Below are positions 11,807-55,398 of a stretch of DNA of 64,000 bases, piece by piece. Source of the DNA: a virus. Each line of letters opens with the position of its first letter. Position 1 is the first letter of the stretch. The position numbers and the translations under genes were made by a program. The notes beneath the pieces were generated by a model. That model did no database searches and was not told the DNA's origin. It saw only the letters and a list, made by a program, of their open reading frames with translations. The stretch is from positions 34,184 to 98,183 of the IMG/VR virus record IMGVR_UViG_3300050821_008607. One strand, 5' to 3'.

Positions 11807-12006
11807 ACCGAGCACCCCCACGTCGACTGGTCCCAGCCCGGCGGGGCGGAGTGCGTCACCACCGCCGAGTCGGCGAGGGTGCCCTGTTCGGCGGTCTCCA
11901 CGAAGTCCCCGAAGCCGTTGACCAGGTCCCCGGTCTGCTGCGACGACTGCTGGTTGAGGGTCCCCAGGACGTCGACGAGGGTCATCGCACGGTTCACGCC
12001 GGGCAC
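11797..12006 (-). CDS. Small protein between hub and minor tail genes
   Basis: A 69-aa acidic protein (GTG start) with a helix-like middle (DVLGTLNQQSSQQTGDLVNG). Its end overlaps the minor tail start by 10 nt and its start lies 17 nt from the hub gene stop, which supports translation. Function unknown; probably a tail or assembly component. Confidence 0.5.
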   Translation of the reverse strand: MPGVNRAMTLVDVLGTLNQQSSQQTGDLVNGFGDFVETAEQGTLADSAVVTHSAPPGWDQSTWGCSVWS

Positions 12007-20331: not shown

Positions 20332-21278
20332 CACTGCCTCCTCATGAACGGCTCCAGCAGCCACTCGTAGGACGTCTGCACATCGGCGACACCGTGGCCG
20401 CCCTCAGTGAGCGACCCGGCGATGTTCTGCACCGAGATGCTCGTGAACCCCGCCTCCAGCGCCTGCGACGCTGCGGCCAGCGCGGAGGCCCAAATGACGT
20501 TCGCGGGCAGCGCCGATACGCACACCCCGACTGCATGGGGGTTCGCCAGCGCCGACGACAGGGTGATCGTTCCGGGTCCGGCCTGCGCCGTGCCGACGCC
20601 GTTCGGGAGATTCATCGGGGTTGTCGCCGACACTGACAGCACGCTGACGGTCTCCGTCTGAGCGCCGTCGTAGGCGAACCCGGAGGCGCCCGCCCAGCCC
20701 GTCACGTCGTCGACGTGCAGGACCGTGTCACCGGAGTTCGCCGCAGCCGTCAGGGACGTGTGGGGCCAGCCGTTGGTGTAGGAGACGAGGATTCGGGTGG
20801 AGTTCCGGCCGCAGGACAGCGGCGGAATGTAGCCCGGCGCCACAATGATCGACGCCCCGCCGTCCGGGCCCGTCGCCGACGCCGCGTCCGTGTACAGGTT
20901 GATCAGGGGATGCTCAGGCTCGTACATGCCGGACGGGACGGGCGTCCATGTCCGGGGGAACGAGCGGTTCGGGCTGGTTTGGATCGCCAGGACCTGAGTC
21001 ACCGGCCAGCGGGACATCACCAGGAGCCCGTTGAAGGTTCCCGGCTGAACGCCCACGCGCCGGGAGCCGGGCCCGGTCAGCTCCTGATTGTCGACGGTCG
21101 CCCGCAACACCTGGTTGCAGTACGTGTCGACGATGCTCGTGGCCCGCCAGCAGATGTTCGTCAGCTCCGCCAACTGGGCAGCGCCGTCCGCACCCGGTTT
21201 CGGAATGATCTGCCAGGACACGCCCGTAGGCGAATTGGAGACCATGCCGGGAGTGATGTACGGAGTGCCTACAGCCAC
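20331..21278 (-). CDS. Head-tail connector protein
   Basis: A 315-aa protein with TNICWRATSIVDTYCNQVLR near residue 45, a typical connector helix (HK97 gp6-like), a beta-rich middle, and a C-terminal helix (ASALAAASQALEAGFTSISV) ending SYEWLLEPFMRRQ. Position between capsid and tail-completion genes fits the adaptor ring below the portal. Confidence 0.7.
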   Translation of the reverse strand: MAVGTPYITPGMVSNSPTGVSWQIIPKPGADGAAQLAELTNICWRATSIVDTYCNQVLRATVDNQELTGPGSRRVGVQPGTFNGLLVMSRWPVTQVLAIQTSPNRSFPRTWTPVPSGMYEPEHPLINLYTDAASATGPDGGASIIVAPGYIPPLSCGRNSTRILVSYTNGWPHTSLTAAANSGDTVLHVDDVTGWAGASGFAYDGAQTETVSVLSVSATTPMNLPNGVGTAQAGPGTITLSSALANPHAVGVCVSALPANVIWASALAAASQALEAGFTSISVQNIAGSLTEGGHGVADVQTSYEWLLEPFMRRQ

Positions 21279-26452: not shown

Positions 26453-29400
26453 CTATGCGCTCAGGACGGCACACCGACACCGTGGGTGCGCCGGTACGGA
26501 TCGGTCCCCCGAGGGGAATGAGGCGCCGAGCTGGATCGGCCCGGCCCCGGCGTTGGCGATACACCGCGGGCACGTTCGGCTGGACGGGTCCAGGGCCCAG
26601 CGGACTTGGGTGACGCCGAGCTGCTGGTAGCCGAACAGTGCGGCGAGGCCCGACGAGCGGGTGATCTCCGTGATGGCGACGGCCAGTGCCCGGTCGACGC
26701 TGCCCAGGGCACTGCGCAGGGTCCGGCCCAGGGCCAGGGCGGTTGCCCCGGCGATGAGACCCTTGGCCAACTCGCGGGCCAGGTCCCGGCGGCGCGTGTC
26801 GGCAATGCCCTGCGCAGTCTCGGGAACCTGGTCGAGGATCGGCGTCAGGCCCTCGTCGGCGCCCTGGTCGGTGATGGTCCGCTGGGCTCGGGCGGTGTCG
26901 CCGGGTGTCCAGCCGTTGCGCTCTGCCCGGTCGCCGGTGGCTGCGGCGTGGGCGGAGGTGAGGCCGACGAGATAGCCGTCGGTGTACAGCCCCGGCAAGG
27001 TGTCGACGAGCGGGGTGGTGAGGTCCAGGGTCTGGCTTCCGAGCCACGCCTCAGCGGCTGCGGTCAGTTCGCCCTGTTCGGGGCTGCTGGTCTCGTCGAG
27101 CTGGTGCTCGGCGAGGAACCGGCCGGCGACGTCCTGGGCTGCCGCGGCGGTGAGGACGCCACCGAGTGCCGCGGCGATCACTGCGGCCCAGTGGTTGGCG
27201 GCGTCCTCGTCGGTATCCCAGCCAGGCCACTGGTCGGCAGCCCCCTGGCCAGGGGCTTCACCTTTTCCCGCGCCGACCTTCTCCAGCACCTCGACGCCGA
27301 GGGCGGTGAGGACCTGGTCGAGGTCGGCAAGCAGCTCGGGGCGCACGGCCGGGTTCCCGGCCAGTTGCCCGGGGTGCATCCAGGCGATCGCTTCGATGCA
27401 GTCGCCGTCCGGGTCGTCCGGGTTGGTGACATCCCGGTCGCCGCGAACCGGCACCATGGCCTCGGAGTCGACCGTCCAGACGATGCCCTGGTAGACGCCG
27501 TCCGGACTGACCCATGTGCCGCTCTGGACGCCCGGGGGCGGGATGGACCCGGTCTCCTCCGACCATTCACGCCACGCGCCCATGAGCGGCGACTCGGCCC
27601 CTTCGAGGTGACCGCCGGGGAACTCGAAGGTTCCACCTGCGGGGTCCTCGGGGTCGAGGCAGCGCTGCAGCATCAGGACGCGGCCAGTGTCAGCAGCGCG
27701 CACTGCGAGGCCAGCGACACTGACCTCACCTGCTGCCTTGCGGACGGCGAGCCGGGCGCTCTGGTTGAGGCGCCGTCCGCGGATCGGGTCGATGGCGCGG
27801 AACTCGAAGGGCTCCCACTGGCCGGTGCGGCGCCGCTTCTTGGTGAACGACCGGAACGCGGCCAGCTCGCTCTTGGCCAGCTGCTCCCGGTCCTCCTGGT
27901 CGTCGTTCTCGTCGTCGTGCTGCCCCACGAGGTCGTAGGAGGTGATGCCCGTGGCGGTCGTGATCCCCGCCGTGGGGGCGCCGTCCTTCGCAACCTCGGT
28001 CGCGGGGGCTTCGGCGACGGGCTGCGGGGGTGGGGCGGTGGGCATCGCGTCGAGGCCGTAGATCTGCTCCGCGAGCGGGACGCCCTTCGCCGGCGGTTCC
28101 GGGGTGATGCCTTCCGCGCCGGTGAACACCGAATGTGGCAGCGGCGCGCCGGGTTCGGGGGCGCCGGTCTGGGTGTCGATCTCTCCCGCCACCGAGTACA
28201 GCGACGACAGTGGCACTGGGCCGGCGTGGGAGGTGAAGATGAATCGGGGCACCGGCTGGCCGTTCGGCTCCTGGAGGCCGTAGCGGCTCTCCCGGATCTC
28301 GGACGCGCCGACGACACCGAGTTCGATGTAGATCTTGTCTGCCTGGGCCTGCTGCAGCCGGTCGGCCTGCTCCTCGCCGAGGTCGAAGGCGAAGTCGAGC
28401 GGCAGGCCGAGATCGTCCTGGAGGAACGCGGACAGGATCGTCTGGACGTGGCGCAGCAGCGGCAGGTCGCCGACGCGGTGCTGGACGTCGGCCTGCGACT
28501 CACCGCTGCTCTTGTTGACGGACTCGGTGAATCCGAGGTCGGCCGGTACGACGTGGAATGCCGCCGCGGTCTTCCGCATCAGGAACAGGCTGAAATGATC
28601 CTGGAAGTCTTTCTCGTTGGACCATTCGATCTTGCCGCCGCCGGGCATCCACTTGATCTGGGCCTTGGCGGCCTGGTCGCCCAGCATCCAGGCGTCCCAG
28701 TAGGTCTGGAATGCCTCGATCTGGTCGGGGGTCCAGGTCTCGGGTGCGGACGCGAACGCGGAGGGGATGTTGCCCTCGGTGAAGCGCTGCAGGAAGTACG
28801 CCTGGAACCTGAGGTCGGTGTTGGCGTTGAGGAGGATCGTCTCCAGCGGCGCCAGCCCGTAGGGGCTGTTGGCGCGCTTGCGGAACGGCTGGTAGATCAG
28901 GTCGTCGCGGGTCAGCTGGTCCCACGGCAGGCCGTTGACGTACTGCACGAACGCCGGGGCCGGCGTCTCGGGGCTGTTGCCCCAGTAGTCGAGCAGTGGC
29001 GCGATCATGGTGCCGTCTACGACGCGCAGGCCGATGGCGTCACCGCGGCGGTTCCGGAGCCGGTACAGGGTTCCGGCGTCGTAGGCGAGGGTGTCGTACA
29101 GGAACGAGCCGAGCCAGGCGCTGAAGGACTGCTGGCCGTCGGGCTTGGCGAGGGCTTTCATGCCGATCTGGATGGCGTCGGCGAGGTCGCCGCCGTTCCC
29201 GTCCTTGGCGACCAGGGACCAGTCGAGGGAGCGGATCGAGTCGATGCGGTGCCAGATGCACATCTGGGCGACGTCGTAGGACTCGATCAGGCCGCGCAGG
29301 GTGTCGAAGCTGACGCGCTCGTAGGTCCGCGGCCTGGTGGCCACGTTGTAGTTGGTGACGTAGTTCTCGGTGCGCGGGGTGCGCGAGTACCCGTCGTAGG

Positions 29401-29524
29401 GCCCGAGTGGTGTGCCGGGGCTGAACGGCGACGCCGGGGTCATCTGGGATGCTGCCTGGCCTGCCGCGATGGCTGCGGGCACGTTCGTTCCGTAGGTCTT
29501 GACCAGGCGGCGGGGGTCGGGCAC
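26453..29524 (-). CDS. Portal protein fused to a Nudix domain and a MuF-like domain
   Basis: One 1023-aa frame with three parts. Residues 1-470 are a portal: YDVAQMCIWHRIDSIRSLDW near 83-102, SPYGLAPLETILLNANTDLR near 220-239 and SSGESQADVQHRVGDLPLLR near 339-358. Residues 595-740 are a Nudix hydrolase with the box G638-x5-E644-x7-R652-E653-x2-E656-E657-x-G659. The C-terminal part (about 755-1023) ends with TCPRC then HPRCRCAVLS, the MuF/head-morphogenesis signature. The portal forms the DNA gate. A cleavable or tolerated Nudix insert is unusual; its substrate is unknown. Confidence 0.85.
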   Translation of the reverse strand: MPDPRRLVKTYGTNVPAAIAAGQAASQMTPASPFSPGTPLGPYDGYSRTPRTENYVTNYNVATRPRTYERVSFDTLRGLIESYDVAQMCIWHRIDSIRSLDWSLVAKDGNGGDLADAIQIGMKALAKPDGQQSFSAWLGSFLYDTLAYDAGTLYRLRNRRGDAIGLRVVDGTMIAPLLDYWGNSPETPAPAFVQYVNGLPWDQLTRDDLIYQPFRKRANSPYGLAPLETILLNANTDLRFQAYFLQRFTEGNIPSAFASAPETWTPDQIEAFQTYWDAWMLGDQAAKAQIKWMPGGGKIEWSNEKDFQDHFSLFLMRKTAAAFHVVPADLGFTESVNKSSGESQADVQHRVGDLPLLRHVQTILSAFLQDDLGLPLDFAFDLGEEQADRLQQAQADKIYIELGVVGASEIRESRYGLQEPNGQPVPRFIFTSHAGPVPLSSLYSVAGEIDTQTGAPEPGAPLPHSVFTGAEGITPEPPAKGVPLAEQIYGLDAMPTAPPPQPVAEAPATEVAKDGAPTAGITTATGITSYDLVGQHDDENDDQEDREQLAKSELAAFRSFTKKRRRTGQWEPFEFRAIDPIRGRRLNQSARLAVRKAAGEVSVAGLAVRAADTGRVLMLQRCLDPEDPAGGTFEFPGGHLEGAESPLMGAWREWSEETGSIPPPGVQSGTWVSPDGVYQGIVWTVDSEAMVPVRGDRDVTNPDDPDGDCIEAIAWMHPGQLAGNPAVRPELLADLDQVLTALGVEVLEKVGAGKGEAPGQGAADQWPGWDTDEDAANHWAAVIAAALGGVLTAAAAQDVAGRFLAEHQLDETSSPEQGELTAAAEAWLGSQTLDLTTPLVDTLPGLYTDGYLVGLTSAHAAATGDRAERNGWTPGDTARAQRTITDQGADEGLTPILDQVPETAQGIADTRRRDLARELAKGLIAGATALALGRTLRSALGSVDRALAVAITEITRSSGLAALFGYQQLGVTQVRWALDPSSRTCPRCIANAGAGPIQLGASFPSGDRSVPAHPRCRCAVLSA

Positions 29525-34601: not shown

Positions 34602-34767
34602 GTCGCGCGTCCCGGCAGGGCGGCCGGGACGCGCGACCAACCCGCGACCAGCCACCCTCGAAGCACGGGCGCGGGCGCGGGACCCCGCCGTGGGGGGAAG
34701 TCGGCGGGGAGATCAGGCAGGCGGACATGGCGAGACCCCGGAGCGATATCCATCTTCCGGGGCCTCT
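34602..34767. terminator. Two strong hairpins between tRNA region and small genes
   Basis: A perfect 15-bp stem (34602-34616 with 34623-34637, loop 6 nt) and a second stem with 10 of 11 pairs (34732-34742 with 34757-34767) flank an otherwise empty stretch. Neither has a T run; GC-rich hairpins without T runs can terminate in Streptomyces. A short possible ORF between them has no convincing ribosome site. Confidence 0.45.
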
Positions 34768-34806
34768 ATGTAATGCCACCTACTGCGCACGCCAGCACGT
34801 TTAAGG

Positions 34807-34909
34807 GTGCAGGTCAGTCTCAGACCGCCCCGTTCTGCCATTGAACGTACCCAGGCACGGAGAGCCCGGGGCCGGATTCGAACCGGCAACTAACGATTGG
34901 AGCCTGCAC
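34807..34909 (-). tRNA. Candidate circularly permuted tRNA 2
   Basis: Transcribed right to left: a T-arm with canonical loop TTCGAAT and 5-bp stem GCCGG/CCGGC (34871-34887), then the 3' acceptor strand CCCGGGC and U73, then a 6-nt spacer, then a 5' acceptor strand GCCTGGG (34850-34856) pairing 7 of 7 with it (one G-U), TA, and a D-arm with stem CGTT/AACG and GG in the loop. Flanks GTGCAGG (34903-34909) and CCTGCAC (34807-34813) pair perfectly. An anticodon stem GGCGG with TCGTT is possible but wobble-rich, and U33 is not obvious, so the anticodon is unassigned. Confidence 0.5.
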
Positions 34910-34936
34910 TCGGTCGATCTGGCGATCGGTAGCGAT

Positions 34937-35067
34937 GCTGAACCTGGAGCGAGAACCTGAACTTGGGAACGGCTGCCTCTACCGTTTGGGCTACCGGGGC
35001 ACGAGAGCCCCGGGGAGGATTCGAACCTCCACTGTGCCGCGTCGTCAGTCTCGGATTCAGTTTCAGC
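34937..35067 (-). tRNA. Candidate circularly permuted tRNA 1
   Basis: Transcribed right to left: anticodon 3' strand GCGGC (35036-35040), variable ACAGT, T-arm GGAGG-TTCGAAT-CCTCC (35014-35030), 3' acceptor CCGGGGC with U73, a 5-nt spacer, then the 5' acceptor GCCCCGG (34994-35000; 7 of 7 pairs), TA, a D-arm with GG, and anticodon 5' strand GCCGT (34969-34973; 5 of 5 with one wobble). The flanks 35045-35067 and 34937-34960 form a long interrupted helix (4, 5 and 9 of 10 pairs). Anticodon unassigned: TCCCAAG follows the stem and position 33 would be C. Confidence 0.6.
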
Positions 35068-35069
35068 TT

Positions 35070-35104
35070 TGGCCCTCACGGGCCACCCCGCCGCTCAGAC
35101 GGGG
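35070..35104 (-). terminator. Two hairpins after the 244-aa gene
   Basis: TGGCCC/GGGCCA (35070-35085, 4-nt loop) and CCCCG/CGGGG (35086-35104) lie between the gene ending at 35114 and permuted tRNA 1. They could terminate its transcript or act as processing structures ahead of the tRNAs. Confidence 0.45.
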
Positions 35105-35113
35105 AGTCTTGGG

Positions 35114-35848
35114 TTACGCAGCGAACAGGTAGCCGAACACCGTCTCGCCGACGCGCTGGTCGACGACCTCGCTGCCGTTAGCTTCCTCGCGGGCGAACTT
35201 CACGGCATGCTGCAGCTTCTCCACCCGCTCCAGCAGGTCGTTGACCCGCTTGGCCGGCAGGGCCCCGGAGAACTTGACCTGCGTCCAGAAGCCGACGGTC
35301 ACGTCCTCGGTGTACACCTGCACCTGCGCCGGGTGCTGCTGCGTCGCCGGGGTCAGCTCGTGGTTGCGGTACACCTTCTTCGTGCGGTGCGTCTTGACCG
35401 CGTCGGTGCGCCACGCGTCGGACGAGTCGTCCAGGGTCCACGACTCCGACGGGTCGAGCACCGGCAGCTTCTTGATGAAGGTGTGGATGTCGACCAGCTG
35501 CTTCTCCAGGAACAGGAGGTAGCTGACCGGTGCGCCCTTCACCAGCAGGTGGCCGTCGACCTTGACGTCGGCCTTCGCGGTGCAGTTTGCCCAGTCCTTC
35601 GTCGCGGTGACGTCGAACAGTCGGGTGAGCGTGGCCGCGGTGGACGCGATGACGTCCTCGGCGCGGACCTGAACCTTGGTGGACTCGGGCGGCAGCTGCT
35701 CGCCCTCTTCGTCCTTGGGCTGATAGGTGCGGGCAATCCCGGACAGTAGCGGGGACTTCTGCACGTTGTGGTGGGCTGCGGTGAGGTCGGCGAAGGCTTT
35801 CGCCTTCACGCCCTTCTCGACAGCAATGATCTGGTTGAGCTTGGCCAC
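35114..35848 (-). CDS. Conserved actinophage protein, DUF7873-like
   Basis: A 244-aa soluble protein beginning MAKLNQIIAVEKGVKAKAFA. The start, KVYRNHELTPATQQHPAQVQ and the ending VGETVFGYLFAA are familiar from many actinobacterial phages; I assign it to a DUF7873-like family with moderate certainty. It has no enzyme motif I can name. A promoter-like region with a 9-bp palindrome lies just upstream, and tRNA sequences follow, so it may be strongly and separately expressed. Confidence 0.7.
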   Translation of the reverse strand: MAKLNQIIAVEKGVKAKAFADLTAAHHNVQKSPLLSGIARTYQPKDEEGEQLPPESTKVQVRAEDVIASTAATLTRLFDVTATKDWANCTAKADVKVDGHLLVKGAPVSYLLFLEKQLVDIHTFIKKLPVLDPSESWTLDDSSDAWRTDAVKTHRTKKVYRNHELTPATQQHPAQVQVYTEDVTVGFWTQVKFSGALPAKRVNDLLERVEKLQHAVKFAREEANGSEVVDQRVGETVFGYLFAA

Positions 35849-53329: not shown

Positions 53330-54478
53330 ATGACCACCACGACCGGCTTGACCCTGGACGACCTGTTCCCACCGGAGGCGCTGGCCGCCGCGCTGGAGGC
53401 GCAGCACGTCACCCGTAAGCAGCACCCCGACCTGCCGCTGCACATCCTCACCTACACCCGGGAGTGCCAGTACGGGCACATCTGGACGCCCGTCACCATG
53501 CAGTGCCGCGGCCTGATAGCGGACGCCGGGGGCCGGATCGTCGCGTTCCCGTTCCCGAAGATCTTCGTGACGGCGATGCACGGCGTCCACGACTTCGCCC
53601 CGCCGCTGCCGGTCGACGAGCCGTTCGAGATCTTCGAGAAGGCCGACGGCAGCCTGATCATCGTGTTCCACTACGACGGCCACTGGCACGCCGCCTCCAA
53701 GGGCAGCTTCATCAGCGAGCAGGCCGACTGGGCGCAGCAGTGGATCGACGCCGCCGACCTCAGCCGGCTGGACCCTCGGCTCACCTACCTCGCCGAGGCG
53801 ATCTACCCGGCGAACCGGATCGTGTGCGACTACGGGCCCCGCGAGGACCTCGTGCTCCTGGCCGCGTACCGGCCCGCTGACGGGTCGGAGGAGCTGCTGT
53901 CGACGGTTGCCCCGCACTGGGCTCCGATCGGGTCGGTGATTCGCTCCTGGGGCCTGGACGACGACGTCAGCAAGCTGGAGGCCCTGGCCGCGGCGAGCGT
54001 CACGCTCGGCGGTGACGAGGTCGGCGGGACGGAGGAGGAGGGCTACGTCATCCGCTTCGCGTCCGGCCAGCGCGCCAAGGTCAAGCTGTCCGCCTACCTG
54101 ACGCTGCACAAGCTGTTCACCGGCACGAACGAGCGCACGATCTGGGAGGTGCTCGCCTCCGGCCAGGACCCGGCCGTGCTCTTCGACACCGTCCCGGACG
54201 AGTTCGCCGACTGGGCCCGCGGCATTGCCGACCGACTGCGCGCCGAGCACGGCCGACTGGTCCGCGAGGCTGCCAGCGCCTACGCCGACATCGTCGACAT
54301 CCAGCTGGGCACTCTCGACTTCACGCGCAAGGACTTCGCGATCGCCGCCGCCAAGTCCGACTGCCGCTCCGCACTGTTCCTGCTCCTCGACAAGCGCGAC
54401 GACGCCGTCAGGGCCTGGGCGTGGAAGCAGATCAAGCCCCGCGGCGACAAGCCCTTCAAGAACGACGAGGACAACTGA
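53330..54478 (+). CDS. RNA ligase, T4 Rnl1-like
   Basis: A 382-aa protein. The nucleotidyl-transfer motif I is EKADGSL with Lys 104 as the adenylated residue, preceded by QCRGLI near 58-63. Motif IIIa-like LTYLAEAIYPANRIV, motif IV EEGYVIRF and motif V VKLSAYLTLHK follow in order. The C-terminal domain is helical, as in Rnl1. It should seal 3'-OH and 5'-phosphate RNA ends using ATP. The kinase-phosphatase that prepares such ends is the next gene, 2 nt away. Confidence 0.85.
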   Translation: MTTTTGLTLDDLFPPEALAAALEAQHVTRKQHPDLPLHILTYTRECQYGHIWTPVTMQCRGLIADAGGRIVAFPFPKIFVTAMHGVHDFAPPLPVDEPFEIFEKADGSLIIVFHYDGHWHAASKGSFISEQADWAQQWIDAADLSRLDPRLTYLAEAIYPANRIVCDYGPREDLVLLAAYRPADGSEELLSTVAPHWAPIGSVIRSWGLDDDVSKLEALAAASVTLGGDEVGGTEEEGYVIRFASGQRAKVKLSAYLTLHKLFTGTNERTIWEVLASGQDPAVLFDTVPDEFADWARGIADRLRAEHGRLVREAASAYADIVDIQLGTLDFTRKDFAIAAAKSDCRSALFLLLDKRDDAVRAWAWKQIKPRGDKPFKNDEDN

Positions 54479-54480
54479 CC

Positions 54481-55398
54481 ATGCCCACGATCCACTTCAC
54501 GACCGGCCTGCCCGCCAGCGGCAAGACCAGCTGCGCCACCCGGCTCGTCCGCGACGCCAAGGGCAGCCTGCGCCGCATCAACCTCGACGACATCCGCGCC
54601 ATGCTCGACTCCGCCTACGGGCAGTCCGTCTGGACCCACCGCCACGAGGCGACCGCCCAGAAGATCCAGAAGGAGGCACTCCGGGCCGCGCTGTCCGACG
54701 GCTTCGATGTGATCGTCGACAACACGCACCTGACGCCACGAATGCCGGGCCGGCTGAAGTCGGTGCTCTCCGAGTTCGACGACCTCGCCTTCGAGGTCCA
54801 CGACTTCACCGGCGAGGACGTCGAGGACTGCATCTTCCGCGACGGCGGTCGTGCGAAGCCCGTCGGCGAGGACGTCATCCGCAAGCTCTGGCAGCGGCAC
54901 CAGTCCGCGACCAAGGGCGGTTGGCGGCTGACCGCGGAGTGGCTGGCGGACCGGTTCGTGCCGACGCTCTACGTGGCGGACGCCTCGCTCCCGGCCGCTG
55001 TCCTGGTGGACATTGATGGGACGCTCGCGCTCAAGGGCGACCGTGGCGTGTACGACTTCGAGCACTGCGGCCGGGACCACCTCAACAAGCCCGTCGCCCA
55101 TGCGGTCGGGCTGCTCCGCAAGGCCGGGGATCAGATCATCCTGCTGTCCGGCCGCGGCAGCGAGTACCGGATGCAGACCCTCGCGTGGCTTGTCGAACAC
55201 GAGGTGTGGTTCGACGAACTGCACATGCGCCCCGAGAAGGACACCCGCCGCGACGACGTCGTGAAGGCCGAGCTGTTCGACGCCCATGTCCGCAACCGGT
55301 TCAACGTCCGTATGAGCCTCGACGACCGGGACCGCGTGGTCTCGCTCTGGCGCCGGATGGGCCTGCCGTGCTGGCAGGTCGCACCCGGCAACTTCTGA
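54481..55398 (+). CDS. Polynucleotide 5'-kinase / 3'-phosphatase, T4 Pnkp-like
   Basis: A 305-aa two-domain enzyme. Kinase: P-loop GLPASGKT at 9-16, the same position as in T4 Pnkp, with NLDDIRAML and VIVDNTHLTPRMPGRLKSV. Phosphatase: VLVDIDGTLAL (DxDGT), ILLSGRGSEYRMQT and RMSLDDRDRVVSLWRRMG. It phosphorylates 5'-OH ends and removes 3'-phosphates, creating substrates for the ligase. Together they form an end-healing and sealing pair used by T4 against anticodon nucleases. Confidence 0.9.
   Translation: MPTIHFTTGLPASGKTSCATRLVRDAKGSLRRINLDDIRAMLDSAYGQSVWTHRHEATAQKIQKEALRAALSDGFDVIVDNTHLTPRMPGRLKSVLSEFDDLAFEVHDFTGEDVEDCIFRDGGRAKPVGEDVIRKLWQRHQSATKGGWRLTAEWLADRFVPTLYVADASLPAAVLVDIDGTLALKGDRGVYDFEHCGRDHLNKPVAHAVGLLRKAGDQIILLSGRGSEYRMQTLAWLVEHEVWFDELHMRPEKDTRRDDVVKAELFDAHVRNRFNVRMSLDDRDRVVSLWRRMGLPCWQVAPGNF

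Follow-up and report, generated by a model that had tools for sequence, protein, structure and literature searches.

The window, by which we mean the whole 64,000-nucleotide stretch of viral DNA that was analysed, carries on its minus strand a gene for a 244-aa protein of the DUF7873 family (35114..35848; PF25283, E 6e-113), which lies immediately upstream of the RNA region described here. Elsewhere in the window, a 1023-aa frame on the same strand (26453-29524) joins a phage portal domain, a NUDIX domain and a Mu F-like domain, and the plus strand encodes what amounts to an RNA repair pair, namely a T4 Rnl1-like RNA ligase (53330-54478; PF09511, 42.5 bits; an RNA ligase in PHROG as well) and a Pnkp-like polynucleotide kinase-phosphatase (54421-55398) whose gene overlaps that of the ligase. 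No ordinary tRNA genes were found in the entire 98 kb virus record.

Between 34807 and 35067, again on the minus strand, sit two units in which the T-arm and 3′ acceptor strand come ahead of the 5′ acceptor strand and D-arm, with a short intervening sequence between the halves. Unit 1, a permuted tRNA-like domain at 34969..35040, begins with the stem strand GCGGC (35040-35036) and continues with the T-arm GGAGG-TTCGAAT-CCTCC (35030-35014), the 3′ acceptor strand CCGGGGC (35013-35007), a 6-nt spacer (TCTCGT) and the 5′ acceptor strand GCCCCGG (35000-34994), after which come TA, the D-arm, A26 and the second stem strand, GCCGT (34973-34969). Unit 2, a further permuted tRNA-like domain (34826..34895), has the T-arm GCCGG-TTCGAAT-CCGGC (34887-34871), then CCCGGGC (34870-34864), a 7-nt spacer, GCCTGGG (34856-34850) and the D-arm, and is flanked by GTGCAGG (34909-34903) and CCTGCAC (34813-34807). 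The T-stems pair at 5/5 positions and the acceptors at 7/7 in both units alike, so the permuted order and stems claimed in the preliminary description are indeed there. Neither ARAGORN nor Rfam at default cut-offs reports a tRNA at the units, and permissive settings are needed for the middle combination to attain a tRNA score of 29.0 bits, which involves a 77-nt insert and an acceptor that pairs at 6/7 positions. A module search under looser criteria returned 36 matches in 7.3 Mb of block-shuffled sequence, or about 0.3 expected per window, and its sole third match in the window, near 21035, pairs at only 4/5 and 6/7 positions; we do not regard the units as products of chance, because two perfect ones lie 143 nt apart and are kept in relatives.

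Two short hairpins (CCCCG/CGGGG and GGCCC-GTGA-GGGCC; 35071..35104, minus strand, read from the sequence) separate DUF7873 from unit 1, and their counterparts are visible in Streptomyces loci. The 5′ flank of unit 1 (35041..35070) consists of hexamer repeats (AAGCTG, AAACTG and so on) and pairs in part, as helix P1, with the 3′ flank, the AAGTTCAGGTTCTCGCTCCAGGTTCAGC region (34937..34964), which is kept in homologues and shares the 6-nt periodicity. The long helix that had been proposed for these flanks, the P1 duplex, comes to -35.5 kcal/mol within the window and finds modest support across loci, pairing only modestly better than swapped partners and being absent, by eye, from some. The unit-1 flanks have an identity of 0.45 at lag 6 as against 0.25, and in homologues the periodicity is strong on both sides of unit 1 (window positions 35041-35070 and 34937-34964) and absent around unit 2. 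We also considered whether the hexamer repeats might code for a short peptide, and rejected the idea: the frame in step with the repeat is mostly open, yet this is no evidence for coding, because the repeat itself excludes stops there.

Unit 2 is carried on an arm (all minus strand) whose basal helices, P2a and P2b, have their 5′ strands at 34919..34933 (GCTACC, 34933-34928, and CGCCAG, 34924-34919) and their 3′ strands at 34775..34795 (GGTGGC, 34780-34775, and CTGGCG, 34795-34790, respectively). Above these come the internal-loop strand ATCGA (34914..34918), present in 71 of 80 nonredundant loci, and the 5′ strand of helix P3 (GTGCAGG, 34903..34909), while the other side, at 34798..34813, is made up of the P3 3′ strand and a conserved loop strand, CCTTAAACG (34806-34798). 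The region probably ends near a 3′ hairpin, GGCCCCGG / CCGGGGTC, with GGATA in its loop (34734..34764, minus strand); a downstream hairpin with a GGNYA loop occurs in 75 of 80 loci, a count made without a shuffled control. Since the hexamer-rich flanks of unit 1, ATCGA, a helix of the GTGCAGG/CCTGCAC type, TTAAACG and the GGATA-loop hairpin are conserved along with the units, we assign both units to a single conserved RNA region, some 330 nt long, and they presumably lie on one transcript.

How well does this picture survive in homologues? Relatives of DUF7873 were collected from IMG/VR (25 loci at first, later 80 kept of 307) and from bacterial genomes (80 loci retained from over 550 places that matched, most of them in Streptomyces), and nearly all of their loci have a permuted module, or a pair of them, about 90-250 nt beyond the gene on its own strand. 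When the unit-2 arms of 39 loci are aligned, compensatory changes are seen in 33 of the 35 pairs; the covariation score is 0.664, as against 0.225 in shuffles and no more than 0.151 once the partners are slid. P3, the flanking helix already noticed in the preliminary description, has compensatory change in 7/7 pairs and P2b in 6/6, with 98.7% of cells paired, P2a being weaker and only modestly supported. A partner-swap test supports the stem at the anticodon position, which pairs with its own partner in 76/80 cases for unit 2 (34 when swapped) and in 50/66 for unit 1 (27 when swapped), although its pairing is only 62% in the A3 alignment columns, where it is shifted by indels. Covariation follows the helices as predicted for the acceptor, the T- and D-arms, the anticodon position and the unit-2 flanks.

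These findings are extended by R1, a covariance model built on the unit-2 arm. It gives a full-length match of at least 85 bits beside DUF7873 in 80/80 genome loci and at least 63 bits in 69/79 viral loci, some of the roughly ten viral loci without a clear match lacking one because the contig ends there, although these tallies are not fully independent because some of the loci also went into building R1. A more independent test, which includes one genome (G026) behind a model sequence, covered 396 actinobacterial genomes: PF25283 occurs in seven of them, and full-length R1 matches of at least 57.8 bits occur in exactly those seven, adjoining it. In the window, R1 scores 126.7 bits on unit 2, whose sequence is itself part of the model, and matches unit 1 over its full length (34935-35070; 45.9 bits, E 4e-10), so that the two units are homologous modules. 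Lower-scoring R1 matches, when read out, proved to be the tRNA-like cores of Y-RNA-like loci or tandem tRNA-Asn genes; in two places (L220 783-933 and L225 342-492) almost identical tRNA-Asn genes, separated by only a few nt, look like a permuted tRNA and so can mislead searches of this sort.

The closest resemblance among described RNAs is to the bacterial Y RNAs. At permissive Rfam thresholds, YrlA (RF02553) aligns with unit 2 end to end (1-114; 32.7 bits, E 2.5e-5) and with the core of unit 1 (23.5 bits), and homologues also have YrlA matches at the unit positions. Neither unit reaches the YrlA gathering score of 69 bits; Y-RNA-like loci outside the DUF7873 system, one of them beside TROVE, also reach only 43.9 bits. 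As in YrlA, a permuted tRNA-like domain is set on a basal stem. The effector domain of YrlA mimics the D, T and acceptor arms of tRNA and is a substrate for modification by DusA and TruB, while the RNA binds Rsr, an orthologue of Ro60, through its basal stem and PNPase through its head (PMC8394870); several phages carry YrlA according to a statement in a phage paper that cites Sim and Wolin 2018 (PMC7765460). These mimics were overlooked when the units were put forward as permuted tRNAs with no well-described parallel in an actinobacterial phage, for YrlA has the same permuted order and cases in phages had already been reported. Chen et al. (2014) are reported to have described Y RNAs in the vicinity of Ro60 from more than 250 bacteria and phages. 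Streptomyces phage Faust has two unannotated permuted cores (L004 3996-4054 and 5070-5127) upstream of an annotated Ro-like RNA-binding protein, which are probably canonical phage Y RNAs, and in Streptomyces-type genomes (L221-L224) YrlA-like RNAs occur in pairs about 235 nt apart, with the exception of L222, which has a single one about 0.9 kb from TROVE.

Might the units nevertheless be what they were originally proposed to be, genuine circularly permuted genes giving two decoding tRNAs? The transcript would then be cut and joined at the anticodon loop, and RNase P and 3′ processing would remove the acceptor spacer. The leader-3′ half-spacer-5′ half-trailer order is that of algal permuted tRNAs (PMC3978253), a stem occupies the anticodon position, NCCA follows the discriminator in 57/111 unit-1 and 32/111 unit-2 spacers, and the phage encodes its own RNA ligase and kinase-phosphatase; moreover, almost every sequence has a purine at position 26, as tRNAs do. 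It is the loop that speaks most clearly against this possibility. U33 is present in just 8/61 unit-1 and 25/75 unit-2 sequences, positions 32-38 pair in 46/61 and 45/75, respectively, with the helix often running on through 33-37, and no conserved decoding loop of 7 nt with U33 was found in the de-permuted homologues, all of which makes decoding unlikely. Once the units are de-permuted, ARAGORN reports an intron-bearing tRNA in 158/160 cases, with anticodons that scatter over nearly every kind, stop, SeC and Pyl included; the scatter alone is a weak argument because the anticodons of established permuted tRNAs vary from one organism to another as well (PMC3978253). In addition, just 3 of 17 other records yielded a relative of the phage ligase, no RtcB was found, and the conserved P2 and P3 helices and the linkage to DUF7873 are foreign to tRNA genes. 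Bacteria are not known to have the tRNA-splicing endonuclease. The proposal of permuted tRNAs was therefore right about order and stems, and right to make homologues the deciding test, but the decoding loop does not bear it out, and we consider two decoding tRNAs very improbable. We give virtually no credence to the idea that the units are remnants of a decayed tandem tRNA array, or an artefact of tandem tRNAs; a false permuted match can indeed come from identical tandem tRNA-Asn genes, as it does in Streptomyces, but the idea is refuted by homologues, in which the helices covary and the order is kept across diverse phages and genomes.

A second question is whether the units are simply a canonical pair of YrlA Y RNAs bound by a Ro60 protein that the host supplies. 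This would account for the YrlA matches on the units and their homologues and for the YrlA-like layout of the unit-2 arm, and TROVE is encoded in 10 of 20 DUF7873-bearing bacterial genomes; however, the other 10 have none, and where coordinates are comparable it never adjoins DUF7873, lying about 65-110 kb or far more away. Moreover, R1 matches in four Y-RNA-like loci, one beside TROVE, cover the tRNA-like core only, so the stems of those loci differ. Among phages, TROVE is found in 2 of 27 records and is absent from 25, including complete Racecar and contigs of 619, 363, 245 and 202 kb, and no TROVE gene was found in the present 98 kb record, which may itself be incomplete. On one phage contig (L014; G010:10076-10219) TROVE lies about 1.7 kb upstream of DUF7873 (near 11947), the only such link seen. 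Dependence on a host Ro60 thus strikes us as distinctly improbable. Rather unlikely too, though less so, is an acceptor-processed, multi-piece tRNA mimic, in which RNase P and 3′ processing would open the acceptor loops to leave free, perhaps aminoacylated, CCA ends as in a two-piece permuted tmRNA; this would be a sub-form of the explanation we prefer and not an exclusive alternative to it. Acceptor-end processing, by RNase P and CCA-handling enzymes, is conceivable because CCA is so often encoded at the correct place, right after the discriminator, and the spacers are unconserved and range from 4 to more than 40 nt; judging from these sequences, many unit-1 heads could have processed tRNA-like ends in place of a closed hairpin. 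Many other heads, those of the window included, have short spacers without CCA, and ACCA also stands in the short closed loops of Y-RNA-like heads at L221 and L223. Furthermore, no tag reading frame was recognised, and there is no tmRNA covariance match in the window, homologues giving only fragments below the cut-off.

The explanation we prefer, and think very likely to be correct, is that the units form a pair of tRNA-like heads on a single structured non-coding RNA, about 330 nt long and YrlA-like in architecture, that is encoded with DUF7873 and not with Ro60. The permuted heads, the covarying helices, the strict linkage to DUF7873 and the loss of anticodon-loop features argue for an RNA of this kind, and the pattern of TROVE absence from the record, from most phage records and from half of the genomes argues for its independence from Ro60. 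It is best read as a new family, a variant of the Y RNA architecture, and gene linkage suggests that DUF7873 is probably its partner. The protein has no mention in the open-access literature, and relatives also occur in Klebsiella/Serratia jumbo phages and in Vibrio, Rhizobium, Gordonia and cyanobacterial phages. Its AlphaFold2 model (pLDDT 92) has no significant match in a fold search of the PDB and a viral library; Cas7/RAMP proteins rank first in both, at a probability of at most 0.38 and a TM of about 0.14. In the model, the order of strands and helices could be RRM-like, and a Cas7-type protein would fit the 6-nt periodicity of the unit-1 flanks, which we offer as a lead only.

We can envisage that DUF7873, or a host protein, binds the parts of the RNA that are not tRNA-like, the candidates being the flanks of unit 1 with their hexamer repeats, the internal loop (ATCGA/TTAAACG) in the unit-2 arm, or both. 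By analogy with YrlA, the heads might recruit or occupy tRNA-recognising enzymes, their acceptor ends possibly being processed as outlined above, and the particle might serve to tether such enzymes or to decoy them, RNA decay and RNA repair being examples of where this could matter. A bolder version, which we think unlikely and put forward as speculation, has a possibly RRM/RAMP-like DUF7873 assembling along the 6-nt repeats of a two-headed RNA with CCA-processed, perhaps aminoacylated, ends; if true, phages and Streptomyces would possess an independent counterpart of the Ro60-Y RNA or tmRNA systems. With our preferred two-headed RNA, the principle of a permuted tRNA mimic, known from Y RNAs, would reach a system independent of Ro60; the RNA also draws attention to an unstudied linked gene family, which diverse phages carry and which matches more than 550 places in bacterial genomes, and furnishes a testable RNA-protein pair in Streptomyces. 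There is a caution here as well, which is that permuted tRNA-like halves in bacteria need to be tested against Y RNAs and tandem tRNAs before they are labelled permuted genes.

Among known systems, the permuted tRNA genes of Cyanidioschyzon, green algae and Thermofilum share with the DUF7873 RNA the order of the halves, the stem at the anticodon position and sometimes an encoded CCA, whereas the DUF7873 RNA lacks a conserved anticodon loop or U33, has conserved extra helices, and is found in bacteria and phages with a linked protein gene. Permuted two-piece tmRNA likewise has a permuted tRNA-like domain with an intervening acceptor loop, but the DUF7873 RNA is two-headed, without a recognised tag frame or a significant Rfam tmRNA match. 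The Y-RNA-like clusters at L221-L224 share the core of the permuted head, and 3/4 of these loci have two such heads at a distance of about 235 nt, but their flanking stems are unmatched by R1 and, in the stretches read, they do not lie beside DUF7873. YrlA itself is the nearest relative in design, with a permuted head of T-arm, acceptor hairpin and D-arm, lacking a decoding anticodon loop, on a basal stem with an internal loop, in bacteria and phages alike; in contrast, the DUF7873 RNA falls below the Rfam cut-off, has a pair of neighbouring heads within a single conserved unit, builds on other basal helices and another loop (ATCGA/TTAAACG), and is coupled to DUF7873 with Ro60 mostly absent.
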